The position numbers and the translations under genes are program-made. A DNA stretch of 60,122 bases from a virus. The stretch covers positions 1 to 60,122 of the IMG/VR virus record IMGVR_UViG_3300030098_003345; one strand, given 5' to 3'. Below are positions 17,901 through 57,171 of the stretch, in pieces (the first letter of the stretch is position 1; the number at the start of each line of letters is the position of its first letter). The notes under the pieces were generated by a model. It searched no databases and was not told the DNA's origin. It saw only the letters and a list, made by a program, of their open reading frames with translations.

Positions 17901-20900
17901 AGCTTTGCGAATCATTTCACGCACCGCTAACTTAACGCTTTGTAAGTTATCAGAAGCCTCCTTACGGGTCTTTATCCTTTGTTTAATGGCATCTATCTCT
18001 CTTTGTACAGAAACATTAGCACGAGTATCTATCGTCTTATCTAAGGCTATAATAAGGGAGTCTTGAGTCTGCTTAGGTTGAGCCTCAAATATTGGTTCAG
18101 CCTTTAAAATTTCAATAGCCTTTAGTCTTATTTGAGATTTAGTTTTTGGGGGATTTGTGATTGTTGTAGCTACACCAACTCGTGGATACCTGTTAAGAAT
18201 CTCTTGGTCGGTCAACGCAAACAATGTCGGGTTAGCCTCACGTAGTTGAGTGGCACGTTCAGCCTTTTGCTCTGCAGTCTCTCTTTGATACGTTGTAGTG
18301 CGTGTAGGTTTAGTATATGCCTTTAATTTTTTTCGTACATTATCAAACAACACCTTTCCTTCACTCATCCCGCCCTCTACATTACCAAACTCCGGTATAA
18401 CGGCTACGTCATTAAATAATGTGTTATCAAGATTAACTACTAAGGCTTCGTTTATTTGAGCTTTCTTAAATCCTTCCTCCTTTAATACTATTCTAATTGC
18501 CGCATCACTATATCCTTGCTCTCTTGCGGAAGAAACAATAGTGGTTGCTGACATATCATTAATACTATTTCCTGTCATCAACTGCAGTCCGCTTTTAATC
18601 TCTTGTGCTTGAGCTTCGGCAAATACCTGCTCTCCTGACAGTAAATCCACTACCACACCTTGCAAAAACTCATCAAGCGTTAAATTTTGAACCTCTTCAT
18701 CACTCATTTTTGATAGACCAACTAAAGATTTAACAAAATTGTATAGCTTGTTAAGCCAATTTTTAAAGTCAGCTTTTATAGAGGCATCAGCAAATGATTG
18801 TCCTTTATCTCCAATTGCGGTGGCAAGAGCTTCTTCTAAAATAAATTCTCTTATCTCTGCTTCTGTCGCACCATCTTCCTTCATACTCTTGATAACCCTC
18901 TTATACTCAGGACTATTTTCAATTTGTGAGATGTAGGTATCGTCAGTTTCTATAAGCTCTATCCCTTTCTGATATAACTTGGGGTTAAATTCTTTAGCAA
19001 CGGAGTTCCATATGTGACCAAATTCGTGAATAGGTGTGTTAGTATTTGCAGCTTTAGGATTTAGGTAAAGCTTACCCTTGTATACGGCTCCATACACCTT
19101 ATTTTCATCACGTTGTGCTTTTGTCGTAACCGCCACCACATCAGGTTGAATTAATAAATTATCAAACTGTTTTTGGTTTGTTATCACTTCTATATTAGGG
19201 AATGATTTACTAAGTAGATTTACAAAATTATCATAAGACCTTGCTGTTATAGGAGAAACCGTCTGCGCTTGTGAGGCACTAACAGAGGCTTTATACATTG
19301 TATCGGACATAGCCTCAGCCGCAGTAAATGGTCGTGTGGATGCAGGAGTAATAACCTTGCCTGTTTTTTTATCTCTCTTTTCAGCTACTTTCTTTTTTAT
19401 TACCTTTCCAAACTTAGCTTCAATCGTATCCTTAAAGCCTTTTATCACATTCCAAAACGGAGTAGTCTCTTGTAATAAAGCGACAGGCTTACCCCTTAGA
19501 TAAAAATCATAGCTTGGGTGACTTGGTATGCCTTCTTGTTTTTGTTGTTCAGGACTAACTATAGCATCATCAATTGTCTTTTCAGTTACCTTGTTACCTT
19601 CACTATCCTGAATCTCTAAGACCATAGTCATTGTACCCGCAGGTAAGTCTTTTACAAAGTCTTCTGTTAAAGGTTCTCTAAGGCTTTCTATAGAGATGCC
19701 CTTAGATTCTAAGGTCTTCCCTACATCGGTTTTGGAAGCCTTACCCTCCACCGGTATTATATTCTTAAATACCTTAGCTTTTGTTCTAAGATTTAAAACG
19801 TCTATATTTTCCAACAATTCCGTTACGTTTGTGGATTTAGCAACTATATCGGCAACTTTTTGGGTATCATCAAAATCTTTTTCACGGAAGACCTTCCCAT
19901 CTAATTGAGCTACTATTTGGTCGAATATAAGTTTCTGAGTATCGGTATCTAACTTAGACAATTCATTTAAGAACTGTGTCCTTATAGCTACATTGGAACT
20001 GATAGCATCAGGGTTCATATTATATACCACCGTATAGTCAGATTTGACTGCTCCCTTTGCAATCTTGCGTACTGCATTTTCATCAACATTTGCCCACGCA
20101 ATATTATGCTTACGCATTCCTTCTTGCAACGAAAAGAATGGACCACCCATAAACTCTTCATTAGTTACAAGTTGGTCTGCCATTATAAGATTAATCTTTT
20201 TCCCAATCAGTTCACTTAGACCCATACGTTTCAGGTCTTTAGCAAGGGATGTGTTCTCATCTATAACGATAGGAATTGTTTCCACATTAACCTCTTCTAC
20301 GGTGTATGAGTTTTCTGCCATACTCTCCTGCTGAAGCTCCATCAATCTCGTTGCCTCTTCAGTCAGCTTCTCTTGTCTCTGCTCGTTAGTTATACCTGCA
20401 GCTAATTGGAATTTTGGATTTTCTTTTTTAATAAAAGCTTCTAAGTCTTTTACCTCTTGTTCTAAATTTTGTTTTCCTTCTACTTGCGTTTTAATCTCTT
20501 CACTTGGAGTTATAATAGCGTCAATCTCCACCTGCATTCCATCCCCAAACATTTCTGCATATCCCGGAGCATTGGCAATAATGTTTTGAGCATCTTTTTT
20601 TGTTGACACAATTGGACCAACTTGGTTTGTAACTTTATTAACAACTACCCATTTACCATTTTCTGCTGCAGGACCAAATGTGCTACCATCTCTGTTGTCA
20701 ATTATCTCAAAGTCTTTAGACCAAATCTTTTTATCGGTCTTATTCATTGTATAAGTAACCATCTCATCTTCAATCTTCTCAGTAGGAGCTACCTCTATGT
20801 TAGCCGACAAAACCTTTACTGCATCTTCTTTAGACTCTACATTTGACTCTATGATTTCTTCTCCTTGTCTTACCGAAAACCTACCATCAGGCTGAGTGAT

Positions 20901-23900
20901 AATCTGACCTTTAACCTCGTTAGTTGTCTCGCCTATTACATCCTCAACTATCGCACCCTCTTCTACTTGTATCTCTGTGGTAGTAGGTTTAGTTGAAATA
21001 GTTAACGCTTCTGAGACTTCAGTTGTCGTAGTGGTCGGAGATTCTTGGGTTTCTTCCGAAACCTCCCGTACAGTCTCTTCCACCGCTTGTATATCTCCGG
21101 TTTGTTTATCTTGAGAAACTGTTCCTGCTTTTCGCTTTGAAATGGCATCTTTTTTATTTATTAATAGTTTTTGTACTTCAGGGTCATATAATACCGCCGT
21201 AGACCTATGGAGTATTTGGTTTAAATTTTTAGCTTTGTTAATGTTTTTAATAAATTGGTCACGAGTCACCTGTTTTCCTCGCCACATATATTTACCGGTT
21301 TTACCTCTTTCAGTCTTACCTAAAATTAAGTCCAAGTTTACTTGATTTGCTACACCTTCATTTAGTAGCTTTCTATATTCTTTAGTGGTAAGCTCACCCT
21401 CATCCAACATCTTCTTATATTGAGTCCGTTGTTTTACACTTAATCCTTGCACATTTCCTGTTTCTGCTATCTGTGCTATCTCAGCATTTATCTCTTTTAT
21501 CTTTTCTTTAAATACAAGTTTTGTATTTTGTGTTTGGCTTAATTTATTACGAGCTTCAATAAGCCTACCTAATCTTGTCTTAACATCTTTTTGTGTAGTG
21601 ACTTTGGTTCCTCTTACGGCTAAAGAACTAATCGGTCCCCCTGTCACAGATACAAGTTCATTAACCTCTCTCCTTATACCAATATTTTCTCTAATCTTTT
21701 GTGCTTGGTCTGCATCTATCTTTCCAAGCTTGAGCATATTGTCGGTCCACGTATTTATCCGGGTATCACCTGTAGACTCATTCATTATAAAGCTCATATC
21801 GTTGGCAAGCTTATCTGCAAGCCCTACATTGCTTCTATTCCTTTGGTCGATATAAACATTAATTGCCGCATTAGATATGTTATTACCTCCTGCACCGCCT
21901 GCCTCAGCTCCAATGTCTTTCCAATCAAGCTCATCTCCTACACTTGCTTGTGCCAATCCTTCACCCAATGCTTCCATAGCCGGGTCAAAGACTGCACGTT
22001 CTGCTGCAAATAGACCTAATGCTTGAGAACGAGTAGCAAAAGTTCCGGCTTTAAAAACCCTACCGGCAAGACCTGCTGACATAAAATCTACTGCTCCAAT
22101 TACAAGACCTCTCTTAACACCCCTATCATTGGCTTCCTCCCATACAGACGGCTCCATCAACCCTTCAGCAACCTCGTCAGGATTAAGTGTATTAAAATTG
22201 TGATTTTCTAAAGCCTCAATAACGGCATTAGAATATTCCATTGCAAAACTTGTTGCTCCAAATCCGGTCCTTATACCCCAAACCATTCCGGTCCCCGCAC
22301 CACTTATTGCACCGGGAATTGCACCCACTCCACCGGCAGGTGCTCCGGTTGCTGCTCCAATACTTCCTCCAAGAGTGGCACCTTGTGCTGCGGCAGTAGG
22401 TATAAGCCACATCCCATAGGGCAACATTTGACTTATAGAGTTAGCCGCTAAACCAACCATCCATTCTGCAGGGTCCCTTAAGAAGTTATTCCATCCCTCT
22501 TTCCCACTCACCTGCCCAAAGTATCGTGCATTTACCCGTGATGTTTTACCGGATTGCTCCGATAGATGTTGAGCAATTTTTTCGGAGGCTAATTTTCTAT
22601 CTTCAGGGTCTTCAATGTCTACAATGCCTGCAGCCATTAAGACTATTTGCTCCATAGCATTACCACGAGCTAACCCATCATTCCAAGCCGTTGCTATGCT
22701 TTCCCAATCATCTACATAGGCATCTTGAATGTTTTTATTTTCTTTCTTAGAAAAATAAGTCTGAGCAATATCAAACTTAAGTGCTGCTAAATTTTCAGTA
22801 GCAGCCACAGTATTTAATTGGCTAATGTATATATCTTTTAGTTTAGTTTCATATCCGTCTTTAGGAATGTAATTAACAATATCCTTTGCTCTTATACCAA
22901 GATTATTTATAACATCAGCATCTATCTTCATATAATCAATCTGTGCTTGTCTATTTATCTCAGCCGCTTTACCTGCAGCTTGTCGTTGTTTTTTCGCTAA
23001 ATATCCATCAAAGTCTTCTCTTGCCCTTGCTATTTCTTGGTCATCTATATAGATTTCAAATAACCTATCTTCTGTTTCCTCTATCTCTTTTATTCTTTCT
23101 CCGGCATCAGACCGTAACACACCATTGACATAGAATTTACCATAAAGTTCTTTCTCTTCTTCTGTTAGATTGGATTCTAATCTGTCTCGGGGGTCACCCT
23201 CTAATACTTCTTCAAGGAATAATCTTTCATCCCGTGCCTGTTCGTACATTTCAAACCCTTCTCGTGCTACATTATAATCAAGACCTCTCTCTGAGTAAAA
23301 GCGTTCTGCCTCCAAATCTACGGTGCTTACATCTTTCCACCCTCCCTCTGCAAAATCCTGTGCCTTTTCTTGAGAATCAAAAGAAAACACTTCGCCTCTT
23401 TTCTTGGCTTCCGTAATCGCATCTTCAAAAGACAATACCTCCCAATCTATAGGTTTAGAAGTTACATTATCAGGGTCTTTTGGGAATAGGGTTGGTGCTA
23501 CATAATGTTTACCATCTTCCTCATAAGACATAAATTTTACAGTAGATTGTGAGCCATCAGGATTTACTAACGCTACAGGTCTTATAGTCTTAGCTCTTAA
23601 GGCATTATCTAATATAGTTTCTTCCGCCTCATCTAACTCTCTACCTACAGGAACTGCATTATCTCTTACAAAGTTTTTCAGTTTCTCGGCATATCTCTCA
23701 TCTAAATATGCGGTAAAGTTATCAAGCTCAATAACCTCTTTTGCATTGGTATAGATATTTCTTATTACTGCCCTATCGAACCCTAAAAAACCATAATCCT
23801 CCACTACAAAACCGTATTTTCCTAAAGTAGAGTTGAGGACAGAAACAACATCCTGAGATTGTCCTGACATTAAATCGGAGTTTATAATATCTAAGGACTT

Positions 23901-24614
23901 ATTAAAGTCTTCATCTCCTGCAAGTCCTGCACGTTCAGTATTCTCCTTAATCGTTTCTTCTGCTTGTCTCTTAGCTTCTTGTTCAATTAATAACGCTTGT
24001 GCCGCCTTTGTTTCTTCAGCTTCCTCAAGTTCTGTGGCAAGTTTATTTTCGGCTGCTATCTTTTCTTGGGTTTCTTTTTGTTGTTGCACATAAAGCTGAC
24101 CCGCTTTACTTTCTTTCCACTTATTTCTGTATTCCGTTACTTCATCAAGTGCAGCTTGAGTGCTGAGTGGACTCTCCGATGCAAGACTCGTATAGTCAGG
24201 ATTAAATCCTATGGCTTCATAAAAATCTTTTTCTGAAATAGGAGTATCGGAATTAAGGATATCACTCTCCCTATCTTCTCTTGATACCGACCCAATATCT
24301 TCCGATATTGAATCCCCAACTTGCTGCTCTTGTGGAGTCTGAATTGGATTTTTTTTTTCAAACTGAACAGACACCTCCTCCCATTGATTGCCAAACCGTT
24401 CTTGAAGTTCGTTCTCTGTAAACTCTTTTCCGTTAGGAGCAATATATGTAGATTCAGATATTTCTTCAGTAGATACTTCTTGGATTGGCTCTGTGGATTC
24501 TACAAACTGACCTGAAGCCACAAGCGTGCCAAAGTCTTCTCCAAATCGTTGACGTAAATATGATTCTGTTAGAACTTTACCGTTTGGGGTTTTGTAGTGT
24601 TTTTCTTCTCCCAT
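14994..24614 (-). CDS. Giant internal virion / polyvalent protein with metallopeptidase motif
   Basis: 3206 residues. Two similar N-terminal repeats (YKTPNGKVLTESYLRQRFG at 7-25; YIAPNGKEFTENELQERFG at 56-74), coiled-coil regions, a glycine/alanine-rich hydrophobic stretch near 720-780, and a zinc metallopeptidase motif HEFGHIW near residue 1863 (19014-19028), then a long helical C-terminus. This fits large polyvalent proteins that phages carry in the capsid and inject with DNA, and the position of T7 gp16-like ejection proteins. Specific activities other than the peptidase motif are not recognisable by eye. Last gene of the late operon. Confidence 0.7.
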   Translation of the reverse strand: MGEEKHYKTPNGKVLTESYLRQRFGEDFGTLVASGQFVESTEPIQEVSTEEISESTYIAPNGKEFTENELQERFGNQWEEVSVQFEKKNPIQTPQEQQVGDSISEDIGSVSREDRESDILNSDTPISEKDFYEAIGFNPDYTSLASESPLSTQAALDEVTEYRNKWKESKAGQLYVQQQKETQEKIAAENKLATELEEAEETKAAQALLIEQEAKRQAEETIKENTERAGLAGDEDFNKSLDIINSDLMSGQSQDVVSVLNSTLGKYGFVVEDYGFLGFDRAVIRNIYTNAKEVIELDNFTAYLDERYAEKLKNFVRDNAVPVGRELDEAEETILDNALRAKTIRPVALVNPDGSQSTVKFMSYEEDGKHYVAPTLFPKDPDNVTSKPIDWEVLSFEDAITEAKKRGEVFSFDSQEKAQDFAEGGWKDVSTVDLEAERFYSERGLDYNVAREGFEMYEQARDERLFLEEVLEGDPRDRLESNLTEEEKELYGKFYVNGVLRSDAGERIKEIEETEDRLFEIYIDDQEIARAREDFDGYLAKKQRQAAGKAAEINRQAQIDYMKIDADVINNLGIRAKDIVNYIPKDGYETKLKDIYISQLNTVAATENLAALKFDIAQTYFSKKENKNIQDAYVDDWESIATAWNDGLARGNAMEQIVLMAAGIVDIEDPEDRKLASEKIAQHLSEQSGKTSRVNARYFGQVSGKEGWNNFLRDPAEWMVGLAANSISQMLPYGMWLIPTAAAQGATLGGSIGAATGAPAGGVGAIPGAISGAGTGMVWGIRTGFGATSFAMEYSNAVIEALENHNFNTLNPDEVAEGLMEPSVWEEANDRGVKRGLVIGAVDFMSAGLAGRVFKAGTFATRSQALGLFAAERAVFDPAMEALGEGLAQASVGDELDWKDIGAEAGGAGGNNISNAAINVYIDQRNRSNVGLADKLANDMSFIMNESTGDTRINTWTDNMLKLGKIDADQAQKIRENIGIRREVNELVSVTGGPISSLAVRGTKVTTQKDVKTRLGRLIEARNKLSQTQNTKLVFKEKIKEINAEIAQIAETGNVQGLSVKQRTQYKKMLDEGELTTKEYRKLLNEGVANQVNLDLILGKTERGKTGKYMWRGKQVTRDQFIKNINKAKNLNQILHRSTAVLYDPEVQKLLINKKDAISKRKAGTVSQDKQTGDIQAVEETVREVSEETQESPTTTTTEVSEALTISTKPTTTEIQVEEGAIVEDVIGETTNEVKGQIITQPDGRFSVRQGEEIIESNVESKEDAVKVLSANIEVAPTEKIEDEMVTYTMNKTDKKIWSKDFEIIDNRDGSTFGPAAENGKWVVVNKVTNQVGPIVSTKKDAQNIIANAPGYAEMFGDGMQVEIDAIITPSEEIKTQVEGKQNLEQEVKDLEAFIKKENPKFQLAAGITNEQRQEKLTEEATRLMELQQESMAENSYTVEEVNVETIPIVIDENTSLAKDLKRMGLSELIGKKINLIMADQLVTNEEFMGGPFFSLQEGMRKHNIAWANVDENAVRKIAKGAVKSDYTVVYNMNPDAISSNVAIRTQFLNELSKLDTDTQKLIFDQIVAQLDGKVFREKDFDDTQKVADIVAKSTNVTELLENIDVLNLRTKAKVFKNIIPVEGKASKTDVGKTLESKGISIESLREPLTEDFVKDLPAGTMTMVLEIQDSEGNKVTEKTIDDAIVSPEQQKQEGIPSHPSYDFYLRGKPVALLQETTPFWNVIKGFKDTIEAKFGKVIKKKVAEKRDKKTGKVITPASTRPFTAAEAMSDTMYKASVSASQAQTVSPITARSYDNFVNLLSKSFPNIEVITNQKQFDNLLIQPDVVAVTTKAQRDENKVYGAVYKGKLYLNPKAANTNTPIHEFGHIWNSVAKEFNPKLYQKGIELIETDDTYISQIENSPEYKRVIKSMKEDGATEAEIREFILEEALATAIGDKGQSFADASIKADFKNWLNKLYNFVKSLVGLSKMSDEEVQNLTLDEFLQGVVVDLLSGEQVFAEAQAQEIKSGLQLMTGNSINDMSATTIVSSAREQGYSDAAIRIVLKEEGFKKAQINEALVVNLDNTLFNDVAVIPEFGNVEGGMSEGKVLFDNVRKKLKAYTKPTRTTTYQRETAEQKAERATQLREANPTLFALTDQEILNRYPRVGVATTITNPPKTKSQIRLKAIEILKAEPIFEAQPKQTQDSLIIALDKTIDTRANVSVQREIDAIKQRIKTRKEASDNLQSVKLAVREMIRKALPKTENITTGTVNRLNNIIAKATDASILNDMRKIEKEIKLVRKRIKNDVVKEIKKLVQEKSKVRISESKKKKSKGIAAETQAFMQSANKVLQNVIKGDTDAMLAILDELTENESLINEAILKENQNEKLTRAEERLLNLSYAFDNFSDLENMSLEDTQLLLSSLKDVNAEGIRRYKSRRKARAEQIKAINREGEAQMTKDFGDAILDKDGTPKDRNQLIMERDKIHKLYHDKKYSKWIMEYIKHYKWTTFSEFIAGFKHSLQHMGTLMNKMDISGNFFTENIYNRLNRADEANMEGYFRTQNKLDEIVNSIEGIDRGMEQVRELLYTSGTMPVMVRKINKDGTIGKTAEEWNGSVDQLLRIYSLYKNDLQRDKLEKQGFTPQVMEEVEAFLGPQLVSVSDKIVNFLSNEYYNEVNDVYRQVNDVNLGYIENYFPTKTLQTEETENILSTGDFSKIFNAESAPSLKVRSNIKSGVELDVDFAATLETHIKTMERYKAYAMPTKIIQGIFDNPYTKSLMESMSLTSVVRNAINYAINPDAFTKHPSKLTKALNWLQSRYTSFALALKLMQIPKQATSFINALEKYRYRKGKATAGVDIVMFMMDTAMLAANLLAEIAVLGAEKVSGKHIGLESRPLSEAMNMSAIFRKRIELGVKGDLMGLESGQPTFKDFETNQAMWAKLGRRGRRIAASPTIIGDIMGVMGYMVNYRRNIKNGMSKAQALQEFNDYNATQQTRRATEKIPLQMNPHAFTRAFTMFGSTLFLQMNKVMQATTNLGRQTQEAIKTKDPSKIKLEDIRSLYLNAAVANVLFTGAANIFKITSDDPKDRAEAFARMRDAMFGLNLIYQIPFFGETAEQAWADWVDEDRKTVVQPTNPVRSIYKKWHNGVKYDDADKILKAAQVLTEIGVGVQADPLVGLAEIFTDGMDEDAMYDLLGVSYSYRPTNKKKKSKSTEDKPSKKEVQDMLDKLAD

Positions 24615-29726: not shown

Positions 29727-32700
29727 TCACTCACATCCACAATTTAGCTTACTTACTTCAAATCCTGCAGGGAAGGTAGCCAAACCAATTTCTTCTGCAC
29801 AAATTGATAACGTGCCTCCCGGTGCTATAATTCCCGTATTAACCCAAACTCCCGCACAATTTTTATAATCTACTGCACCCCCTATTAAGGTAGGGTTATC
29901 CACTTGATAAGTACCACACACATCTTGACAAGAAGTAACTCCTATAGGGACTCCGCTAATAGTATCCGTTACCGGTAGTGCCACTCTATAAAGTGCTTTA
30001 TAAACGCAACTTGGATGACCTGTAAGATTCCATAGACTATTCGCCGTTACGGGGTATGCTCCCGCATCTACAACTTCATAATTAGGACTTGGAGTAGGAT
30101 AGGCTTCCGTACACTCTTCCATTAACCAAAATTCCTCACAATCGCATTCTTCAAAAGTTATCTCTATAAATTCAGTATCCCAAAGAGTAATGTCTGTTGC
30201 ACAAATATCAAGAGTACCTCCTGATGGTACTTCTACGGTAACCGGACCTGCACCATCACACGGAACATATGTGACATCGTGAGTAGAGTCATCGGTATTA
30301 GTAAGGGTGTATTTATTACATACATCACTACATTCACCCTCCTCAAGTATATTAATCACCGCATCTTCTACCTCTTCCGAAGTTCCTATTACTTCAAATT
30401 TACATCCTGTATACAATGGATTGGTAATGCTAACCAAATCTCCTACAATAGCTCCTACAGTATTAACAACCGTAAAGGTTACGGCAGGAGTAAGGATTCC
30501 GGCAGCCTGACATCTTTGAATTTCAAGTTTTTCTGTTGTACACTCACAACACGCTGCATACATATCGGATGCATCATAACATAAGGCTACCCCTGTTGGT
30601 CTTCGGTAATTATATATTAAATATAAATATTGGTCATTACTTACCGGCATTGTAAATTGAGCTTCATAGGAATTAGGTCCACCTGTAATCGGTACTGCAT
30701 CCGTAGAAGCAAAGAGTAATGCTGCCATATCTACAGGGTTATTGAGATATAACGTATTACTTCTTAAATATCTTAATTCATCTATTGCAGGGTCAAACTC
30801 ATAATCATCAATTGGTAAAATTCGGTTGCTAATAATAGTTATAGTAGCTCCGTCATTAGGAATAAATCCTGCTCCTTGTGGTCCGGAAATTGGTGAATAT
30901 TGGGAAATTAATGGGTTAGTAACTCCGGAAACTAATTCCACTTGCTCGGAATGTAGTGGAGAAACGAACATTCCATCTACCCATCTAAATTCATTGTGAA
31001 TAAACTCTCCTGCATCATTATCAAGTGAATAACACACTTGGATAATAGTTATTTCTTGTGCATCAGGACAATTTACAGTAATCTCTAAAGTAGTTTCACC
31101 GCTATCTACTTCTACCTCTATATCTACCGTATCTACCGCTACATTATCTTTATCTACTACCAATGGTGACCCGGCATCATTGTTTACAAATCCTGTTGTT
31201 GTAGTTACTGCATTATAAGTAGCATCTATTTTTACATTAGAAGTGGTTGAAATAATATTGTAATCTATATTTACATCTCCTACAAGATTCCCTACATTGA
31301 CGCAGAACGTAAAGTTATTGTCAGCTTCAGTAACAGTAACCGTTCTACTAATACCACATTCAATACATTCGGGAATATTAGGCAAAAGCTCATTATTGGA
31401 ACTTAAAACAAATTCATTCATATAAGGGTCATAGCCACCAAGTTTCTGAGTATTAAACGCTTGAAGAAATAAATCTCTAAACCACGACCTCATACCCGCT
31501 TCGGAAATAACCTGCAACTGTTCGTTCTGAGCCGAACTTCCTCTGAGCTGAATAACGGCTCCTCTTTTTGCGTCAGTAAAGAACTTATTTGGACCCCACT
31601 TAGCATAGCTTTCCGGGTTTTGGCTTACACCAAAATCTTCTATTCGAGCTATTTGAGTTCCTAATACCTCCGGTACAGAAGCTATAGTTCCTCCACCTAC
31701 TGAATCGGATAATAAATTTTTTCCCTGTAATACATAAGATATCTTATCTTCTTGAAGAGTTAGAACATCAGTTTCTCTTCCATCCACTAAATAAATAGGT
31801 CCATATCTTTCTTCAAGTGGTTTAAAGTTTAATAACCCAAGATTAAACTCATTAAGTTTATTTACATTGGATTCATCATTATATACACCACTATAAGTTA
31901 AATCAGAATACCTACGCATAGCCATATAGCTTTCGTTATTGGTAGTAAATACCCTGTTTCCTAAAGTTAAAACTTTCCCGGTAATAGAATCTTGAATCTG
32001 ATAGCTTTCTACACCATTACCAAAAGCATAACAATTAAAAAATTCTGTTTTGATAATGGCAGGTTGAACTGCAGTTTGGTTCTGTATGTTCCCTTGATGA
32101 TACCCTGTTGCTTGGTCTATGGGATAAGATTTGGAACTTTCAAACCACACATCGGGTAAAGCATCTTGGGGTTCGGTTTCAAATACAACCAAAGAGTTCC
32201 CTCTAATTAGCTCCATATTTACTTTTAATACCGCTTTCTTTTTATTGCCACTATATCCCTTCATTCCCACTACTACCAACCACATTGCACCTGAAATAGT
32301 GTCATCTTCAAAAAATTGAACGTATAAATTTAAGTCACAAGGAAAATCAGTCTGCATAGGAACGGGGAATCCTGTTCCGCTTGATGTTAACAAAGCCGGT
32401 ATATACGTACAAGTAGGAGGTGATGCTCCACAATCTGCTTCAGAAATTACTTCCGAACCACTTAATATACTTGCTACATTATCTCCATCCCACCACGCTT
32501 TTGCATTGGGGTAATCTTGAGTAGCAATTAAGGTAGTGTCAAGCAAATACTTTCTACGTTCTACTCCGGATGTGGCACACGCTTTTCCTTTACGCAGGTT
32601 GTCTATACGAATATTTATCCTTGAACCTGCCGGAATGGTTACCGGAACATAAGCGAAATTACCGGGTCCCGATGGAAGTGAAGAATCAAAATCAGGATTA

Positions 32701-35006
32701 GGTAAATAAGCAGGATAAGAAATATGACTACAATTCCCGCTTGTATCTTCAGTAGTTTTCTCTCCATATGAAACCACCGCATTAGCATCTGTTTCAGTAG
32801 AAAAATTGTTAGCTCTCATTTTGGCATATACTCCTGCGGGGATAGGAATCTCATTTCCTACACTATCTTGAGGAGGAGGGTCTAAAAAGTCTTGCTCTTG
32901 GGCTACCTTTTCTAATACCGAAGTTTGGACACATCTGCTTAATGCGCCATTTGTATCTAATTTTACTCTTAACAAATCTCCCTCTTCTACCTTACGTGCA
33001 TTTTGTCCTTCAAGTAAAAAGTAATCAGAACCTGATATAGGGTCCCGGAAAAAGAACTGAGTATATACATTCCAATAATTTTCCTTATCCTGTTTGCACA
33101 CAAACTTATAACGAGTTGCCCACTCAGGAGCTATTTGAGTTGTAGGGATATTCACCCTTATCCTATTGGCAAAGACTGAGTTTTCACAAGGCACTTCAAT
33201 AGAATTATTTGGACTTACTAAAGCCGTTGTAGCTCTATTAAAATCATCCATATACACTATTCCTATTTGATAACCTCGTTTACTATGTAAACTTTTTGGG
33301 TTTCCAATCTCGGAAAAAGATGCTTCCGAAGCGGTAATTTCATAGTATTCAAAGACTTCTTGAGTGATAGCCACTCCGGTTGGGTCATCCACATATCGTA
33401 CTATAGGAAGAATAAACCCTATGTCCGGTGAAGCCGGAGAGGTAACTATTTCTACCGGTTGGTCCGCCGCACTTATACCGCTTTCATACTTAGTTAACCC
33501 ACTCAATGTGTTTAATACCGAGCAATTAAAGTTGTCTGTAAATGTAGTTCCTAACGCACAATCAGCAACCGTCTGAATATTAAGTGCCGTTCCTATCTTT
33601 TCCACAAAGTCCGTACTGATAGCTAAATCATATGCACTTGGGAATGACTGCGGAAGGAGGTAAGAAAATTGCAGAGTAGTTAAAGGTGTAGTATCAGCCG
33701 GGAAAGGTAAATCCCCTGTAAAAAACGAATGCTGAAAAGTAATTTGAAACTCTAATAAAGCTCCCTGTGTTAAATTTAAGCCTCCAACACCTTGTATAGT
33801 TACTTCCGAATTGGTTCCGCTTTGCGGTCCATCCCACGTATAAGCCGGATTGGAGGTAGCAGTTGACAAGTCAGTTAAACCTACATCTTCAGAATCTAAC
33901 GAAATGGTATATTCAAGTTTAGTAGGGAACCCACTTAAAGTAGTTAAATCATATTGCTCTAAATAATTTCCATAAATTATTCTATTCCCCATTAAAGTTT
34001 GAGCTTTTGCAAGTCGGGGGACATTGTCATAAAGTCTCAAAATTTCTGATATAGGCAATACGGTAAATATCTGACTACTACTAAAAGAATAACTGTAGTC
34101 GGTATTATCTACAAGTCCTAATAAATCTTTATCAAGTTTTTCAATAATACGGATACTTCCATTTTGCATATCCTTCCATAACAAATCAATCCCGGTCACA
34201 AGAGGTCCACCGGAATTATACTCAATAACTGCTAAATTCGTATTATTAAGCATTCCTTCATTTAAACCTGTAGCATAAGAATAATTAAAAGGCTGCGGAA
34301 TAAAGGAGGGTTCTGTAAACTGAGAAGTGGCTGAATAATCGTCATCCTTATATTTCCATCTATATCCAAAACATACAAATCTATCCTCCAAGAAAGTGTC
34401 ATCTGCGACAGTTGAGCTTTGGGTAAGAGTAGGAGAGTCTGCAGGGGGTTTTTTTATTACAAGTAATTCCTCTTCGGTCACACCATCTATTAAAACTACA
34501 GGATTCGCATAGTTGCGATTAACATTTATAAATCGTGGAGGGTTATAATCGTCAGTCCAAAATAATAAATCTTCGATAAGATTAACTCCCGTAATTAAAT
34601 AAGAAGGATTAAAATTTAAAGTAGTATCGGTTCCTCCACCATCATCAATGCTGATAATATGATAAGTAAGAACATTGGTGAGAGTATTTAAGGAAACTAC
34701 TAAATCAAGTTTACCTGTTGCTCCTAATGCAAAGTCAGGGTCGTGAACAAACCAATATAAGGTTTCTGTAGCACCATCCTCAAAGGCTCCAATACACCGT
34801 GCATTAGTCGATAATGCCTGTCCATCATATTGTAAGGTGGTGAGCTGAGTATTTCCTTTAGCATTTTCTACTGACCCTACTTCGGATTGTTCAGTAGAAC
34901 CTAAACGCACATTCATTGCGTCTACATATTCACCATTGGGAAGTAACCTTTCATCAAGGCTTTTATTCATCCTCCCTAAAACAAAATTTCTCTGTACATT
35001 AGCCAT
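29727..35006 (-). CDS. Giant tail stabilisation / muzzle-type protein
   Basis: 1759 residues. N-terminus NFVLGRMNKSLDERLLPNG, YVDAMNVRLGSTE is the hallmark I know from P22 gp10-like stabilisation proteins (muzzle protein of crAss-like phages), which close the podovirus tail below the ring proteins. The body is beta-rich, with repeated aspartate-rich strands. The C-terminal ~350 residues are cysteine-rich (many CxxC pairs, CDCEEFW, CATD), an unusual extension probably exposed. Confidence 0.7.
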   Translation of the reverse strand: MANVQRNFVLGRMNKSLDERLLPNGEYVDAMNVRLGSTEQSEVGSVENAKGNTQLTTLQYDGQALSTNARCIGAFEDGATETLYWFVHDPDFALGATGKLDLVVSLNTLTNVLTYHIISIDDGGGTDTTLNFNPSYLITGVNLIEDLLFWTDDYNPPRFINVNRNYANPVVLIDGVTEEELLVIKKPPADSPTLTQSSTVADDTFLEDRFVCFGYRWKYKDDDYSATSQFTEPSFIPQPFNYSYATGLNEGMLNNTNLAVIEYNSGGPLVTGIDLLWKDMQNGSIRIIEKLDKDLLGLVDNTDYSYSFSSSQIFTVLPISEILRLYDNVPRLAKAQTLMGNRIIYGNYLEQYDLTTLSGFPTKLEYTISLDSEDVGLTDLSTATSNPAYTWDGPQSGTNSEVTIQGVGGLNLTQGALLEFQITFQHSFFTGDLPFPADTTPLTTLQFSYLLPQSFPSAYDLAISTDFVEKIGTALNIQTVADCALGTTFTDNFNCSVLNTLSGLTKYESGISAADQPVEIVTSPASPDIGFILPIVRYVDDPTGVAITQEVFEYYEITASEASFSEIGNPKSLHSKRGYQIGIVYMDDFNRATTALVSPNNSIEVPCENSVFANRIRVNIPTTQIAPEWATRYKFVCKQDKENYWNVYTQFFFRDPISGSDYFLLEGQNARKVEEGDLLRVKLDTNGALSRCVQTSVLEKVAQEQDFLDPPPQDSVGNEIPIPAGVYAKMRANNFSTETDANAVVSYGEKTTEDTSGNCSHISYPAYLPNPDFDSSLPSGPGNFAYVPVTIPAGSRINIRIDNLRKGKACATSGVERRKYLLDTTLIATQDYPNAKAWWDGDNVASILSGSEVISEADCGASPPTCTYIPALLTSSGTGFPVPMQTDFPCDLNLYVQFFEDDTISGAMWLVVVGMKGYSGNKKKAVLKVNMELIRGNSLVVFETEPQDALPDVWFESSKSYPIDQATGYHQGNIQNQTAVQPAIIKTEFFNCYAFGNGVESYQIQDSITGKVLTLGNRVFTTNNESYMAMRRYSDLTYSGVYNDESNVNKLNEFNLGLLNFKPLEERYGPIYLVDGRETDVLTLQEDKISYVLQGKNLLSDSVGGGTIASVPEVLGTQIARIEDFGVSQNPESYAKWGPNKFFTDAKRGAVIQLRGSSAQNEQLQVISEAGMRSWFRDLFLQAFNTQKLGGYDPYMNEFVLSSNNELLPNIPECIECGISRTVTVTEADNNFTFCVNVGNLVGDVNIDYNIISTTSNVKIDATYNAVTTTTGFVNNDAGSPLVVDKDNVAVDTVDIEVEVDSGETTLEITVNCPDAQEITIIQVCYSLDNDAGEFIHNEFRWVDGMFVSPLHSEQVELVSGVTNPLISQYSPISGPQGAGFIPNDGATITIISNRILPIDDYEFDPAIDELRYLRSNTLYLNNPVDMAALLFASTDAVPITGGPNSYEAQFTMPVSNDQYLYLIYNYRRPTGVALCYDASDMYAACCECTTEKLEIQRCQAAGILTPAVTFTVVNTVGAIVGDLVSITNPLYTGCKFEVIGTSEEVEDAVINILEEGECSDVCNKYTLTNTDDSTHDVTYVPCDGAGPVTVEVPSGGTLDICATDITLWDTEFIEITFEECDCEEFWLMEECTEAYPTPSPNYEVVDAGAYPVTANSLWNLTGHPSCVYKALYRVALPVTDTISGVPIGVTSCQDVCGTYQVDNPTLIGGAVDYKNCAGVWVNTGIIAPGGTLSICAEEIGLATFPAGFEVSKLNCGCE

Positions 35007-46785: not shown

Positions 46786-47259
46786 CTATTCTTTATTTTT
46801 CAAAAACATTACCTGCACCATTCGTGCCTCATCTCCTTTCCCAAAATTTTCCTTTATATTTCTTGAGTGCTTATAAAAAGAATCAAAAATAAACACACTA
46901 TTAAATTGTGCTCTATGAATTAAAATAGGAACCTCATCATCATCATAGAGAGTGGTTCCATATCCTTCAGGATAGTTTTTGTTTAAGTAATAAATTAAAG
47001 TTTTATCTCCGTGCATTTCATCAGTATGAATAAAATTAGGTTCTTCTTGTTCTAAGGATGATTTCCTTACAAAGTTCATTACGATTTCATACTCCGGCAT
47101 AAAATTACTAACTAAAGAATACAGAGCATCCTCACCTCTCTCTTGTATTCCTTTAAATAACCCCGATTGTGTTTCCACATCTTCGAACTTACCCGCTTTA
47201 ATGCTTTTAACATATTCTTCAGCTTCAGGCAATACATTATGATATAACATTGGTATCAT
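46786..47259 (-). CDS. 2-oxoglutarate/Fe(II) oxygenase
   Basis: 157 residues. Iron ligands HTD (His78, Asp80) and distal His131 in FYKHS, with Arg146 as likely 2-oxoglutarate anchor; GYGTTLYDDD corresponds to the GGxxTxY-type strand of prolyl-4-hydroxylase-like enzymes. Such genes are frequent in marine phages with unknown substrate (protein hydroxylation or nucleobase modification). Its stop overlaps the preceding gene's frame by 4 bases. Confidence 0.7.
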   Translation of the reverse strand: MIPMLYHNVLPEAEEYVKSIKAGKFEDVETQSGLFKGIQERGEDALYSLVSNFMPEYEIVMNFVRKSSLEQEEPNFIHTDEMHGDKTLIYYLNKNYPEGYGTTLYDDDEVPILIHRAQFNSVFIFDSFYKHSRNIKENFGKGDEARMVQVMFLKNKE

Positions 47260-47819
47260 AAAAGCAAAGTTATTGAGTGGTCATACATTCTCCACAAAAT
47301 TTGATTATCTATATTAAATTCGTATTCTTGATTAGGTTTATAAGTAACTATATCTCCTTTCTTCACTCCCTTTTCCTTTAACCCATCATTTACAATAACC
47401 ATTTCCCCCATTAAAGGTTCTTTGGTTAAAGGTTTGAAAATATAGCTTTCGGTAGGGGGGATAGATTTTAAAAAACAATAGCGGTCATATCCATACCACT
47501 TGTCATTTTTTTTATAAGCAAAGAATTGGTCGAGGTCCACAAAAAATATGTCTTCTTTCAAAAAACTTCTACCGCTTTTTCTTCTGCCATACATATCGTT
47601 GTAAAACTTAAATACATTGTGATGTACAAGCAGTATGTCTCCTTTGGAAATTGGACCATCATAATTTAAAGGAGTCTCAATGACTTCGGCTTGTCGGTTA
47701 CTATAAGCCGCATCTTCTTCTGATGTGCTCATAATAAAGTCTACATTTCCGATTTTTTTTATATTGTCATATCTCCTTCCACCAACAGGTTTTACTATAA
47801 ACTGATAGAGTGATTTCAT
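47256..47819 (-). CDS. Cpn10/GroES-like protein, two subdomains
   Basis: 187 residues. Two segments with GroES-type order: AEVIETPLNYDGPISKGDILLVHHN, split here as AEVIETPLNYDGPIS and KGDILLVHH, and later VKKGDIVTYKPNQEYEFNID followed by ILWRMYDHSITLL, matching the Cpn10 end where a tyrosine/Arg-rich strand closes the barrel. Related two-domain proteins in marine Bacteroidota phages are often labelled chaperonin-10. With 54410-54667 it would be the second co-chaperonin-like gene here. Confidence 0.5.
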   Translation of the reverse strand: MKSLYQFIVKPVGGRRYDNIKKIGNVDFIMSTSEEDAAYSNRQAEVIETPLNYDGPISKGDILLVHHNVFKFYNDMYGRRKSGRSFLKEDIFFVDLDQFFAYKKNDKWYGYDRYCFLKSIPPTESYIFKPLTKEPLMGEMVIVNDGLKEKGVKKGDIVTYKPNQEYEFNIDNQILWRMYDHSITLLL

Positions 47820-50535: not shown

Positions 50536-52296
50536 TTAAGCTATTCCTCCGTCTGTTATAGTCCATCCCTTAGTAATCAAATTTGCTCGTGCAGTAGCAG
50601 CAGCTGAACCTCCTGTATATTTTGAAGTTCCAAAATGAGCCACAACTGCATTACTATTAGAATTATCCAATAAAATTAACCACGCATCATAATCCGATGT
50701 ACTTATCGAAGAACCGTTTAATGCATTAGCCATATCAGTAATTCCCGCAAAACTCATTCCTGATTTAAACGTAATAGAAGTGCTACCTGTAAGATACCAA
50801 CATAAATTCATCGTAGTTACTCCTGATAGGTCACAATTGCTATCTGTAAAAGCAAAAGGGGTTGTTTGTGCATTTCTGAAAGCTTGTGAAAAATCAGTAC
50901 AACTGCTTGAAAGCTCCCACCCTGAAACATTTAGTGATGGAGATGAACCCGCTATATTGTATATTAGTTGCTTTATAGTTGTTGCACTTGACACATCCCA
51001 ACTACTTATATCTAAGGGAGTCCCACCTGTCCACTTTAATTGATAGAATGTTTGAATAAAATTTGTTACATTTGATACATCCCAATTACTTACATTTGGG
51101 GGTGCGCTTCCCGGAGCTAAATCGCCACATAATGCTAATGCACCTCTTAATGTTGTTGCTCCTGACATACTACCGAAATTTGTACCAAAATTAGATGTAC
51201 CACTTGCTCCAAAATCTAATCTTCGTGTCGCATACATAAAATACTGTAAACCCGTTCCTGTTATAGATGCAGTACTCCAACTTGACAATCCATCTATTTG
51301 TGTTAAATCATTATTAACGTAAAAGCAATACTCCATTGTTGTAACATTAGAAGTATCCCATCCTGTTGTATTTAATGTGGTTAATCCCACCATACTTCTA
51401 AAAGCACTACTAAGTTTATTGAAACGAGCAGTATTTGTCCACCCACTAAGGTCTAATGTAAAAGATGCCACCCCTGTTCCCTTTTCAGCACCTTGAAATA
51501 GTGAGGCAGCATTTACTGTACCGCTACTTTTGAAAGTCCAACCATTGATGCTAAAACTTTTTACATTAGCACCACTAAACGTATTTCTAATGGTAGTACA
51601 AGCAGCTAAATTTAGATTAGGCATAATAAACTCGCATCCATTTGTAGAATTTCCTGTATTTTGGCAAACATAACTAAAGTCAGTAACTGAACTCAAATCC
51701 CATCCTGTTAAATTCAATGTTTCTAAACTATCCATATGTTGAAAAGCATACAAAGCACTACCTGAGAAATTACCTGTATTTGTCCATCCCGATAAATCAA
51801 GGGTTACAATTGAATCACAACCAATAAACATACTCCTTAACTCTGTTCCCGAAGTTGCAGTTAGATTTGTTATATCAGGAGCATCTGTTGCGGTATAAGT
51901 CATATTAAGGCAGTTTGTAAACATATCCCTAACACCATTTATCTGAGTAGTACCCCAATTAGTAAATTCGGTCAGTTTAGCTCTTTCAGTAGCATTTACT
52001 CTACCCATTCTTAAACCTGCAAATTGTCCTGTAATTTTAACCTCGTAAGTACCTGTAGAAGCGTAGGTATGCGATTTGTCAGCAGTAGTTACTCCTGTAT
52101 CAGAAGAACCATCTCCCCAATCAACATCATAACTATTAGTAATAGTTCCCTGTTGATTCCATAGGGTGACTACTAAATCAGCCTCATCAGTCAAGGTCCA
52201 TTTCATTATGTGCCTTACATCACCGCCGCCGCCGCCGCTTCCTGAAAGATTTGATAAGGCTCCAATACTATTTGATATAGCAATATATGTACCCAT
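50536..52296 (-). CDS. Receptor-binding-type protein: PKD-like domain and BspA/DUF285 leucine-rich repeats
   Basis: 586 residues. A G-rich linker (SGSGGGGGD, residues 18-26, encoded by a GCC/GGC run near 52222-52237) leads to a PKD-like domain (VDWGDGSSDTG, HTYASTGTYEVKITG at about 58-90). From about 100 onward, repeats of the type MFxxCxxLxxLDLSGWxxSSVT are the BspA-like/DUF285 leucine-rich repeat found in surface and phage tail proteins. Probably a host-recognition fibre. Written in the lower case motif x means any residue. Confidence 0.7.
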   Translation of the reverse strand: MGTYIAISNSIGALSNLSGSGGGGGDVRHIMKWTLTDEADLVVTLWNQQGTITNSYDVDWGDGSSDTGVTTADKSHTYASTGTYEVKITGQFAGLRMGRVNATERAKLTEFTNWGTTQINGVRDMFTNCLNMTYTATDAPDITNLTATSGTELRSMFIGCDSIVTLDLSGWTNTGNFSGSALYAFQHMDSLETLNLTGWDLSSVTDFSYVCQNTGNSTNGCEFIMPNLNLAACTTIRNTFSGANVKSFSINGWTFKSSGTVNAASLFQGAEKGTGVASFTLDLSGWTNTARFNKLSSAFRSMVGLTTLNTTGWDTSNVTTMEYCFYVNNDLTQIDGLSSWSTASITGTGLQYFMYATRRLDFGASGTSNFGTNFGSMSGATTLRGALALCGDLAPGSAPPNVSNWDVSNVTNFIQTFYQLKWTGGTPLDISSWDVSSATTIKQLIYNIAGSSPSLNVSGWELSSSCTDFSQAFRNAQTTPFAFTDSNCDLSGVTTMNLCWYLTGSTSITFKSGMSFAGITDMANALNGSSISTSDYDAWLILLDNSNSNAVVAHFGTSKYTGGSAAATARANLITKGWTITDGGIA

Positions 52297-54009: not shown

Positions 54010-54444
54010 TTGGGAAATGATTATCTAAAATATTGGAGAGTAATTCGCCAATATATAAAAGTCAAATATAATCTTACGCAATCCGACCTTGACGTAATAT
54101 TGTTTTTAAATTCGGAAAACTATTTCTCCAAAGATAAGTTTGAAGAGTTTGATAGAATATTGTCGTGGGATGAAAATAGGTTTGACAAACTCCTAAGAGA
54201 TGGATGGATAGAAGTATTCAGGGAACGTAAAGGGAAGACCAAAGGGTTATATAACCTCTCTTATAAATCCAAAAGGGTTATAACATCTATTTATAAAAAG
54301 CTCAATGGAGAAGAGATGCCAACGTCACCATCTCAAAATCCTATGTTTCTAAAGAATGTATCCTATATGGATAAACGATACCGGGAAGCAATAAAGAATA
54401 TGAATGAGTTTATAAGACAACAACGACATCTCTCTCCTGAATAA
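54010..54444 (+). CDS. Winged-helix (MarR-like) regulator, TTG start
   Basis: 144 residues from a TTG at 54010 (GNDYLKYWRVIRQYIKVKYN); no earlier in-frame ATG. LTQSDLDVILFLNSENYFS, DRILSWDENRFDKLLRDGWIEVFRERKGKTKGLYNLSYKSKRVI (read in parts) is the helix-turn-helix plus wing of MarR-like proteins. The only rightward gene in the late half. Its end overlaps the GroES gene tail to tail by 35 bases. Candidate late-gene switch. Confidence 0.65.
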   Translation: MGNDYLKYWRVIRQYIKVKYNLTQSDLDVILFLNSENYFSKDKFEEFDRILSWDENRFDKLLRDGWIEVFRERKGKTKGLYNLSYKSKRVITSIYKKLNGEEMPTSPSQNPMFLKNVSYMDKRYREAIKNMNEFIRQQRHLSPE

Positions 54445-54667
54445 TCGTCACTTGATTTCCTTTAATAAGTAAAGTGTAAGATTGTCGAGTATCATAATAA
54501 ATAATATCGTCTTTCTTTAGTTTATCTACGTCACTTCCAACCAATATTATTTTTCCCTTTTGATAACGGAAATCTTTTACATCTTCATTGGACAGAAGCA
54601 GACCGCTTTCAGTCTTTATCTCCTCCTCTATCTTTTCTATTGCTATGTTCTTTCCTATTGCTTTCAT
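54410..54667 (-). CDS. groES: Phage GroES (chaperonin 10)
   Basis: 85 residues. KAIGKNIAIEKIEEEIKTESG follows the GroES start; EEIKTESGLLLSNED is the mobile loop that contacts GroEL; YQKGKIILVGSDVDKLKKDD and IIYYDTRQSYTLLIKGNQVTII, then ERDVVVVL, give the beta-barrel and C-terminal strand. Last gene of the operon that begins with GroEL. About 10 residues shorter than bacterial GroES. Confidence 0.8.
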   Translation of the reverse strand: MKAIGKNIAIEKIEEEIKTESGLLLSNEDVKDFRYQKGKIILVGSDVDKLKKDDIIYYDTRQSYTLLIKGNQVTIIQERDVVVVL

Positions 54668-54764
54668 TGATTAGATTTCTTACCTCTTTTCCTAATTCTT
54701 TATCGTTAGGAAAGAGTTTAGTTAAATATTTGATTTGCGATACAGTAAGCTCTCTTTTTCTCAT
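54609..54764 (-). CDS. Hypothetical 51-aa protein, coupled
   Basis: ATG at 54762-54764 overlaps the previous stop (TAATG). Reads MRKRELTVSQIKYLTKLFPN... GGDKD. Overlaps the GroES start by 59 bases in another frame. Basic, possibly a short helix-turn-helix. Confidence 0.55.
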   Translation of the reverse strand: MRKRELTVSQIKYLTKLFPNDKELGKEVRNLINESNRKEHSNRKDRGGDKD

Positions 54765-54961
54765 TATATAACAGTTTCTAAACACAGTTTAGCTAAAACA
54801 CACACGCAAAAAAATAAGATAACTATTACGATTGTATTCTGTATAGAATAGTTTCTCTCCCATTGCTCCCTACTTCTCCCCTGCCTATACTTATTGTTCT
54901 CTTCAATTTCAGCTTCCTTATCGTTTAGGATTTGGTTTTGTGGTTTAAGTTTTGTCTTCAT
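54764..54961 (-). CDS. Small tail-anchored membrane protein, 65 aa
   Basis: Start MKTKLKPQNQILNDKE at 54961 (an upstream in-frame ATG at 54976 is less likely). Polar N-terminus, C-terminal transmembrane helix (TIVIVILFFCVCVLAKLCLE). Coupled at both ends. Confidence 0.55.
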   Translation of the reverse strand: MKTKLKPQNQILNDKEAEIEENNKYRQGRSREQWERNYSIQNTIVIVILFFCVCVLAKLCLETVI

Positions 54962-55085
54962 TTTTCCAAAGTACATATTTAATAATCTTTAGGGTTTTAC
55001 TTGTGGTAGCTTGAGCACCACTTAATTTAGCTAATGCATATAAAATACATATCACTACTATCCATTGTAATATCTCGTTAATCAT
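54945..55085 (-). CDS. Small membrane-type protein, 46 aa
   Basis: MINEILQWIVVICILYALAKLS..., one N-terminal hydrophobic segment and basic end. ATG overlaps the previous stop (ATGATTAA); its end overlaps the next gene by 17 bases. Confidence 0.5.
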   Translation of the reverse strand: MINEILQWIVVICILYALAKLSGAQATTSKTLKIIKYVLWKNEDKT

Positions 55086-55224
55086 TTTTAGTTTGTTGTT
55101 CCCAATTATAGGTGATTGCACTCTTTTCCACTTCCCAAGATATAGGCATATGATATCCTTCTTTTATCAATTTGCTCCTAATCTCCTTAGCTTCTTTTAA
55201 TTTATCTTTAAGACCCTTTCTCAT
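55078..55224 (-). CDS. Hypothetical 48-aa protein overlapping the GroEL end
   Basis: ATG at 55222-55224 lies within the last codons of GroEL. Reads MRKGLKDKLKEAKEIRSK... to YNWEQQTKND. Basic helical start. No family recognised. Confidence 0.5.
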   Translation of the reverse strand: MRKGLKDKLKEAKEIRSKLIKEGYHMPISWEVEKSAITYNWEQQTKND

Positions 55225-56827
55225 AGTTGTCATAGCTACGTGCCATAGTTACAATAGCATTAGTTGATAATATTGTAACGGCAACCGATACTGCATTTTG
55301 CAATGCTTGGCGGGTTACTTTCACAGGGTCTATAACTCCCATTGTCATTAAGTACCCGTATTTCTCTTTTTTAACGTCATAACCATATTGTTGACCCTTT
55401 GCATTTGCATATATCTCCAAAGCATCCAATCCTGCATTTGCAAGAATCTGAACTAAAGGAGCTTTTAATGCGTCAGCTAAAATTCCATAAGCAGTTTTCT
55501 TCGCACTATTTTTTTCGTCATTATATTTAATGGTATATGACTTATGGTGATGGTAAAGGGCTAACCCGGCACCCGGCAGAATACCTTCTTCAAGTGCCGA
55601 CTTTACTGCACAAACCGCATCATCTACTCTGTCATATAATTCTTTTTGCTCAAGGTCAGTATTACCACCTACATACACCACTCCTATACCACCACATAAA
55701 GATGCAATACGCTGATTAATGAAATCTTTATCAATTTTATTTTTAGCATTCCCTAATGCCTCCTGCAATTCTGACACACGATTTTGAATCTCTTCTCCTG
55801 TCTCTTTATCATCTTTGACGATGACCGTTGAGTCACGGCTAACTATCACCTTAGCACAATGACCCAAATCGTTGAAATCAATCAAACTCAAGTCATCGCC
55901 TGTCTTCTCAGAATAATAAGTAGCACCTACACTAATTGCTATATCCTGCATTAATTCGTGTTGCCTATAACCAAAATCCGGAGGATTAATCGCACAGATT
56001 TTTAATCCATTCTTCATCACGTTGGCTGCAAGGGTATTAACAACATTTCCCGAACAAGGAGCTATCATTAATAATTTTTTACCCTCATTTATTATAGGCT
56101 TTAATATATTTTCTATTTGTAAGATGTTACTAATCTCCGTATCACATACCAACACATAAGTGTCTTCAAGGACACACTCATCTCGTTTTTGGTCATTAAT
56201 AAATAAGGTGGATGCATAACCTCTTTTTACTTTTAATCCTTTAGTTGTTTCGTAAAAAGTGTCTGAGGTTTTGCTTTTTTCCACCGTGACTATGCCATCA
56301 TTACCGACACTTTCGTGTACATCTGCAATTATGTCACCAATCTCTTTGTCATTGTTGGCAGAGATAATAGCTACATCTCGCAATCGTTTCGCATCTAATT
56401 TCTTTCCTTTCGTTTTTAAATCCTTTGCAATTACTTTCGTCTCGTCAACCAAATGTCGCAGCACTTCGGTTCGGTTTGTCTCCGCACCAATATATTGCGT
56501 TCCTGCATCCACCAATGCTTCAGCTAATACAATTGCCGTAGTAGTACCATCACCGGCTGAGGAAGCCGTTCTGTCTGCTGCCTCTTTCATCATCCTAACC
56601 GCAAGGTTTTCTACAGGGTCCATTAATGAAATAGACTTAGCTACTGTAACACCATCCTTAGTGACAGTAATGCCGTGTAAATGTTCAGGTGATTCTATGA
56701 GTACGGTATTCCCTCGTGGACCTAATGTGGATTTAACTGCGTTTGCAATTTTGTTTATGCCGCTAATTAATTTGTTGCGCCCTTCACCCGCAAAGTGAAG
56801 CTCCTTTGGATTGAATCCTTGTTGCAT
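55208..56827 (-). CDS. groEL: Phage GroEL (chaperonin 60)
   Basis: 539 residues, close to the 548 of E. coli. Nucleotide pocket intact: STLGPRGNTVLIE, VTKDGVTVAKSI (Asp58), SSAGDGTTTA (Asp93), and YDRVDDAVCAVKSALEEGILPGAG with the Asp398-equivalent catalytic residue. The C-terminal GGM repeat tail is missing; ends SYDNYEKGS. It should fold phage or host proteins together with the phage GroES. Divergent enough (e.g. GFRQ/HELMQDIA region) to look long resident in phages. Palindrome variant copy 14 lies within it. Confidence 0.9.
   Translation of the reverse strand: MQQGFNPKELHFAGEGRNKLISGINKIANAVKSTLGPRGNTVLIESPEHLHGITVTKDGVTVAKSISLMDPVENLAVRMMKEAADRTASSAGDGTTTAIVLAEALVDAGTQYIGAETNRTEVLRHLVDETKVIAKDLKTKGKKLDAKRLRDVAIISANNDKEIGDIIADVHESVGNDGIVTVEKSKTSDTFYETTKGLKVKRGYASTLFINDQKRDECVLEDTYVLVCDTEISNILQIENILKPIINEGKKLLMIAPCSGNVVNTLAANVMKNGLKICAINPPDFGYRQHELMQDIAISVGATYYSEKTGDDLSLIDFNDLGHCAKVIVSRDSTVIVKDDKETGEEIQNRVSELQEALGNAKNKIDKDFINQRIASLCGGIGVVYVGGNTDLEQKELYDRVDDAVCAVKSALEEGILPGAGLALYHHHKSYTIKYNDEKNSAKKTAYGILADALKAPLVQILANAGLDALEIYANAKGQQYGYDVKKEKYGYLMTMGVIDPVKVTRQALQNAVSVAVTILSTNAIVTMARSYDNYEKGS
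56160..56175 (+). repeat. Palindrome variant, copy 14 (in GroEL)
   Basis: GTGTCTTCAAGGACAC: one mismatch to the consensus, in GroEL codons for CVLEDT. CA centre on the non-coding strand. The variant may be a decayed or low-affinity site. Confidence 0.7.
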
Positions 56828-56861: not shown

Positions 56862-56869
56862 CAAAGATA
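56862..56869 (-). promoter_or_regulatory. -7 box before GroEL
   Basis: TATCTTTG on the minus strand, 35 bases before the ATG at 56827; no TTG at -33. Confidence 0.5.
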
Positions 56870-57105: not shown

Positions 57106-57136
57106 TAAAAAAAAGAGGAGCATATAGCTCCCCTCT
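57106..57136 (-). terminator. Intrinsic terminator after the 67-aa gene
   Basis: Minus strand GAGGGGAGC ... GCTCCTC hairpin (57115-57121 with 57127-57135), then a run of T. Confidence 0.75.
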
Positions 57137-57171
57137 TTCAATCAAACATCAACCACTATAATTACGACACG

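Follow-up and report, generated by a model that had tools for sequence, protein, structure and literature searches.

The virus record analysed here probably carries a phage group I chaperonin unit in which the groEL–groES interval serves as a variable insertion site for passenger genes, together with a second co-chaperonin encoded near the terminase gene. The window is the entire IMG/VR virus record (60,122 bases), whose source was concluded to be a marine-type virus infecting Bacteroidota-like bacteria. The features of the unit, including four small genes designated A to D, are as follows.

54010–54444, plus strand: gene for a 144-aa protein with a weak regulator match, converging on groES and sharing 35 nt with its 3′ end
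54410–54667, minus strand: groES, 85 aa, lacking the roof hairpin and with an LLL mobile loop (PF00166, model, alignment)
54609–54764, minus strand: small gene D, 51 aa, with a PND..LG..IR module (family CL1, dN/dS)
54764–54961, minus strand: small gene C, 65 aa, carrying the NNKYRQGRS-EQ motif ahead of a membrane helix (relatives, dN/dS)
54945–55085, minus strand: small gene B, 46 aa, with a single segment resembling a membrane helix (hydropathy 2.24)
55078–55233, minus strand: small gene A, 51 aa, charged and soluble (known in the window and contig L084)
55208–56827, minus strand: groEL, encoding a 539-aa phage group I chaperonin without a GGM tail (PF00118, phrog_5725, tree)
56862–56869, minus strand: TAnnTTTG candidate promoter element TATCTTTG, 42 nt upstream of the groEL start codon, ATG (motif in relatives)
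57109–57139, minus strand: hairpin resembling an intrinsic terminator, located between groEL and the gene upstream (13-pair stem, then a T-run)

Organization of the unit and its genomic setting

ORF calls place groEL, A, B, C, D, and groES on the minus strand between 54410 and 56827, in agreement with the leftward operon of the original prediction, and the four small proteins of 46 to 65 aa are, as proposed there, chained between groEL and groES by overlapping start and stop codons (successive overlaps of 26, 8, 17, 1, and 59 nt). Upstream of groEL, a TAnnTTTG element, which we take to be the Bacteroidota −7 promoter element, was found within −120 to −15 in 78 of 78 relatives, versus 8.9% of random 105-nt stretches. 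At the other end, 74 of 77 loci have a convergent ORF that meets or runs into the groES 3′ end, at an identical offset in 61; the window copy matches phrog_17028 (4e-13) and phrog_12817 (7e-4), amounting to a weak regulator match. An Rfam search of the operon returned no match. In the proposed arrangement, groEL would come first, behind a Bacteroidota-type promoter of its own, and groES last, ending against the convergent gene, while the overlapping start and stop codons may cause the small genes and groES to be translated as a coupled message.

Among known systems, Podoviridae sp. ctfjg026 from Manatee Spring (MW202828.1) resembles the window in its GroEL (58% identical) with groES directly behind, its convergent "repressor", and its second co-chaperonin (59% identical) by the terminase gene, but has no small genes between groEL and groES. 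The Flavobacterium Elemovirus phages are likewise podophages of ~60 kb with the order groEL–groES and a second Cpn10-type gene adjoining the terminase gene, whereas their GroEL is only 37% identical and the pair is adjacent without inserts. Marine viral cpn60/cpn10 genes were reportedly described by Marine et al. in ISME J in 2017.

Elsewhere on the minus strand of the record are a 3,206-aa protein (14994–24614) with no PHROG match and weak Pfam matches only (DUF6861, 4e-5, below the cut-off), a 1,759-aa virion protein (29727–35006) whose N terminus matches the Crassvirus muzzle protein (PF25731, 5.4e-9), and a 586-aa protein (50536–52296) with DUF285/BspA-like repeats of the GWDTSNVT type, which, judging from its sequence, possibly functions in host binding. 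The plus strand encodes a gamma-glutamyl cyclotransferase-like protein (1027–2166; phrog_2520, 4.9e-19); MW202828 also has a gene of that name.

The GroEL and GroES proteins

The product of groEL is near full length, as had been claimed, matching PF00118 over residues 27–528 (E = 7.7e-58, above the curated cut-off) and phrog_5725 (1.7e-131). Its ATP-binding residues are intact, again as predicted: D58, D93, D402, and D403 do not vary among 18 diverse relatives and presumably correspond to D52, D87, and D398 of the E. coli ATP site. The GGM tail, which is common but not essential in group I chaperonins, is indeed lacking in the window, and also in all 80 relatives (0/81). At 52 columns, residues conserved in bacterial GroEL are replaced by other conserved residues; an apical example is the bacterial VV pair, which is AA in the phage protein. 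While the missing tail and such altered apical residues might be taken to indicate decayed or nonfunctional cargo, this reading is barely credible in view of the intact ATP residues, a dN/dS of 0.08, and the retention of the pair at 80 of 81 loci.

A GroEL phylogeny, suggested as a check of the original prediction, separated the phage clade from the GroELs of Bacteroidota and of other phages (support 94/80 for the phage/bacteria split), although long branches leave its deep placement unsure. A recent origin from a host groEL was rejected on the separation from Bacteroidota GroEL in this long-branched tree, and the single-ring chaperonin type of giant phages was ruled out by distance. The giant-phage chaperonins EL and AR9 share with the window a phage-encoded Cpn60 fold, but the identity is only about 26%, covering 74% of the query; the EL chaperonin does not interact with E. 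coli GroES. One 3.4-kb contig binned as a Cytophagales MAG (L134) encodes a GroEL of the window's phage clade (70% identity) and is probably phage DNA in that bin, giving a hint of the host group.

GroES matches PF00166 (E = 2.3e-9, above the curated cut-off), and the best PDB matches of its model (pLDDT 91) are all Cpn10; T4 gp31 (1g31) is among the PDB matches of the model. The recognizable mobile loop ascribed to it was borne out: the hydrophobic tripeptide LLL is kept, with L or I at position 25 and L at position 27 in 35 of 35 aligned relatives. In the same type of alignment, the roof hairpin is deleted (9 residues missing), and Tyr71, numbered by what we take to be the E. coli sequence, is replaced by Arg in 24 of 35 GroES relatives. 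A roof hairpin and an inward Tyr71 are typical of bacterial GroES, not of gp31. The phage chamber may be larger or more hydrophilic. T4 gp31 is likewise a phage co-chaperonin without roof loops, which gives a larger chamber (PMC6318259). T4, however, uses host GroEL, whereas the window phage encodes its own.

Small genes in a variable groEL–groES interval

Of 10,000 dinucleotide-shuffled versions of the 540-nt gap, none had a linked ORF chain running across it, and A, B, C, and D are all open in contig L084, which shares 93.4% nucleotide identity over 2.1 kb. Against L084, D differs by four synonymous changes and one nonsynonymous change (dN/dS 0.05), or by four and none outside the groES overlap, and C by 13 and 11 (dN/dS 0.15), the reference value being 0.08 for both groES and groEL. 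With fair confidence, D and C are coding and under purifying selection on their proteins, and both therefore do something. The ratios for A (0.40) and B (0.57) rest on three and five substitutions, respectively, too few to judge selection; these genes are likely, although not proven, to be coding. That the small ORFs arose by chance in a noncoding gap is highly improbable given the shuffles, the four frames kept in L084, and the low dN/dS of D, even though relatives of A and B are limited to this one 93% identical contig and both show little sign of selection on few changes. Two of the small proteins had been predicted to contain membrane helices, and among A to D it is B (mean hydropathy 2.24) and C (3.10) that carry a helix-like segment. 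Searches of A to D against Pfam and PHROGs gave weak, unconvincing matches only.

Persistence of the small ORFs in close relatives, on which the original prediction depended, was found in part: the frames are kept in L084, but A and B are missing from L001 (90% GroEL identity), and all four genes are missing from L002 and L003 (84–85%). A wider comparison used the best 80 of 423 IMG/VR stretches encoding relatives of this GroEL (63–90% identity), so that its locus frequencies describe close relatives and not all phages. At 80 of 81 loci (the window and 79 of the best 80 of 423), groES lies downstream of groEL; the sole exception, L036, has no groES in the 1,472 nt after groEL. Gene order is conserved for the pair, but not for the genes between, which are gained, lost, and swapped. 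Across 80 loci the groEL–groES distance ranges from −17 to 1,481 nt, with 18 intervals (about a fifth) of ≤20 nt that contain no small genes and 55 of >100 nt. The 104 ORFs of the larger gaps (groEL strand, ATG starts only) fall into approximately 30 similarity clusters, including 15 singletons. Insert presence or absence changes 9 times on the combined GroEL and GroES tree, at least 8 of these changes being forced by well-supported branches, and the four largest insert families change 3–7 times each. The view that phage GroEL is uncommon and a complete pair rarer was not upheld in this setting, since 423 IMG/VR stretches encode relatives of the window GroEL and the pair occurs both at 80 of 81 loci and in Elemovirus, Immutovirus, and Callevirus.

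The small genes differ in their distribution. A collection scan found A in the window and L084 only, and B, compared within groE gaps, was seen in the same two; assignment of A to family CL0 was not convincing (E 0.06 without filters). Relatives of C lie inside the groE gap of L084 and L001, and a shorter motif, NNKYRQGRS-EQ with a membrane helix, occurs in L086–L088, records without PF00118, two of which have a Cpn10 gene elsewhere. The D family, CL1, is present in 15 groE gaps; its members also occur in L113, L114, and L116, in L103 outside another groES–groEL pair, and in L102 (88.6 kb) and L107 (118 kb), where neither PF00118 nor PF00166 is present. A D-like query against named phages gave no match. 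CL0 recurs in the interval of 17 loci and is also found in unrelated neighbourhoods (L111, L113–L119) on fragments of 4–31 kb; the D and CL0 families were scanned with narrow alignments, and some records with D- or CL0-like genes may lack GroEL because they are incomplete. A to D are therefore not found always and only with groEL/groES, as dedicated accessory genes would be. Other inserts include a 185-aa 2OG-Fe(II) oxygenase in L024–L029 and L038 (phrog_61, 6.9e-36 for the L024 copy) and zinc-ribbon proteins.

At 54609–54667, unrelated small genes of different phages end in one out-of-frame reading of the groES start (ESNR.EHSN), and the final 59 nt of D are read in another frame than the overlapping groES start. 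These shared endings mark the groES 5′ end as the point where inserts join.

The original prediction saw possible chaperonin clients or adaptors in the small proteins, and a broader version would make them dedicated partners (adaptors, membrane tethers, or clients) that vary as clients vary. Such a role would fit their location inside the operon, overlapping groEL and groES, the conservation of D and C at the protein level, and the recurrence of CL0 and CL1 in the interval, yet it appears unlikely because 18 of 80 intervals are empty, other families are swapped in, among them the unrelated oxygenase and zinc ribbon, and members of the C and D families occur in records without GroEL and in other neighbourhoods. 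The empty and variable intervals, together with relatives of C and D in phages without GroEL, thus point to exchangeable passengers and not to demonstrated partners. A chaperonin-specific role of any single small gene is possible, although nothing points to it. For a host-takeover role, also raised in the original prediction, the results speak neither for nor against. As a counterpoint to the passenger reading, CL0 and CL1 recur in this one interval at more loci than a random landing site would require; with 6–7 changes on the tree, this recurrence is partly shared descent. Alternatively, because every junction overlaps (1–59 nt) and D covers the groES start by 59 nt, the chain might mainly relay translation and thereby set the GroES:GroEL ratio, its peptides mattering little; selection on the D and C proteins and the many relatives with groES directly after groEL make this quite improbable. 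In the preferred explanation, the interval would be a variable insertion site where small genes are gained, lost, and swapped, and A to D would be passengers from a phage small-gene pool, two of them probably membrane-anchored and all presumably dispensable for the chaperonin.

A candidate two-lid chaperonin system

The second co-chaperonin gene lies apart from the groE unit.

47256–47819, minus strand: second co-chaperonin, 187 aa, Cpn20-like, upstream of the terminase gene (phrog_13932, fold, profile)

The 187-aa protein matches phrog_13932, "co-chaperonin GroES" (6.2e-19), and PF00166 was found in its homologues from phi18:3 and Calle_1. In a Foldseek search, the best PDB match of its AlphaFold model (pLDDT 82) was Chlamydomonas Cpn20 (7ekq_R) over the full length (E 5.4e-5, TM 0.57, rmsd 6.6), yet with 12% identity, and single Cpn10s came next among the matches. 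The C-terminal half is Cpn10 at a profile probability of 96.6% over 77 columns. For the N-terminal half, the corresponding value is only about 10% (shuffles of a smaller alignment gave at most 2.9), and sequence does not show it to be Cpn10; for that half, the tandem reading therefore depends on the fold. From the model, the protein is probably a tandem Cpn10. The adjacent minus-strand gene (46786–47259) encodes a 157-aa protein that weakly matches 2OG-Fe(II) oxygenases (PF13640, E 0.06), and only 15 of 80 relatives have it at the matching place.

The terminase gene lies downstream of the 187-aa gene in 71 of 71 relatives with room for it. Of 23 long records with groEL/groES, 22 also encode the protein, and GroEL is present in 6 of 6 records found through it, counts that come from one related phage group and hence are not independent evidence. 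The gene is conserved in several groups of flavobacterial phages: Elemovirus, Callevirus, Maribacter phage Panino, and MW202828 encode GroEL, a single Cpn10, and a 187-aa-type protein. Cellulophaga phi18:3 has both co-chaperonins and no GroEL, suggesting that its lids may serve host GroEL. A single Cpn10 is also encoded in 5 of 5 named records with a 187-aa-type protein. Most homologues are already annotated "cpn10/GroES", and no paper on a tandem phage form was found in the part of the literature covered. Chloroplast Cpn20, a tandem Cpn10, also occurs together with a single Cpn10 (PMC5780408).

The conserved machine would consist of GroEL, a roofless GroES in which Arg replaces the inward Tyr71, and a second, probably tandem, Cpn10 protein and, by analogy with T4 gp31, would most likely fold virion proteins in late infection. 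A tentative and rather doubtful extension holds that these form a three-part chaperonin, in which the phage GroEL takes a mixed lid of roofless GroES and tandem Cpn20-like protein, converging on the Cpn10/Cpn20 lid of chloroplasts, with the tandem lid supplied from the packaging cluster and tying folding to head assembly.

The four tiny genes would accordingly be explained as occupants of an insertion site that separates two genes whose pairing ranks among the most conserved in biology, a warning against inferring the function of phage genes from operon position. The two-lid chaperonin system is the more interesting lead: a set of GroEL, GroES, and Cpn20-like protein would give a phage system in which to ask why some phages bring whole chaperonins, which clients these serve, and how single and double lid subunits fit a seven-fold ring.
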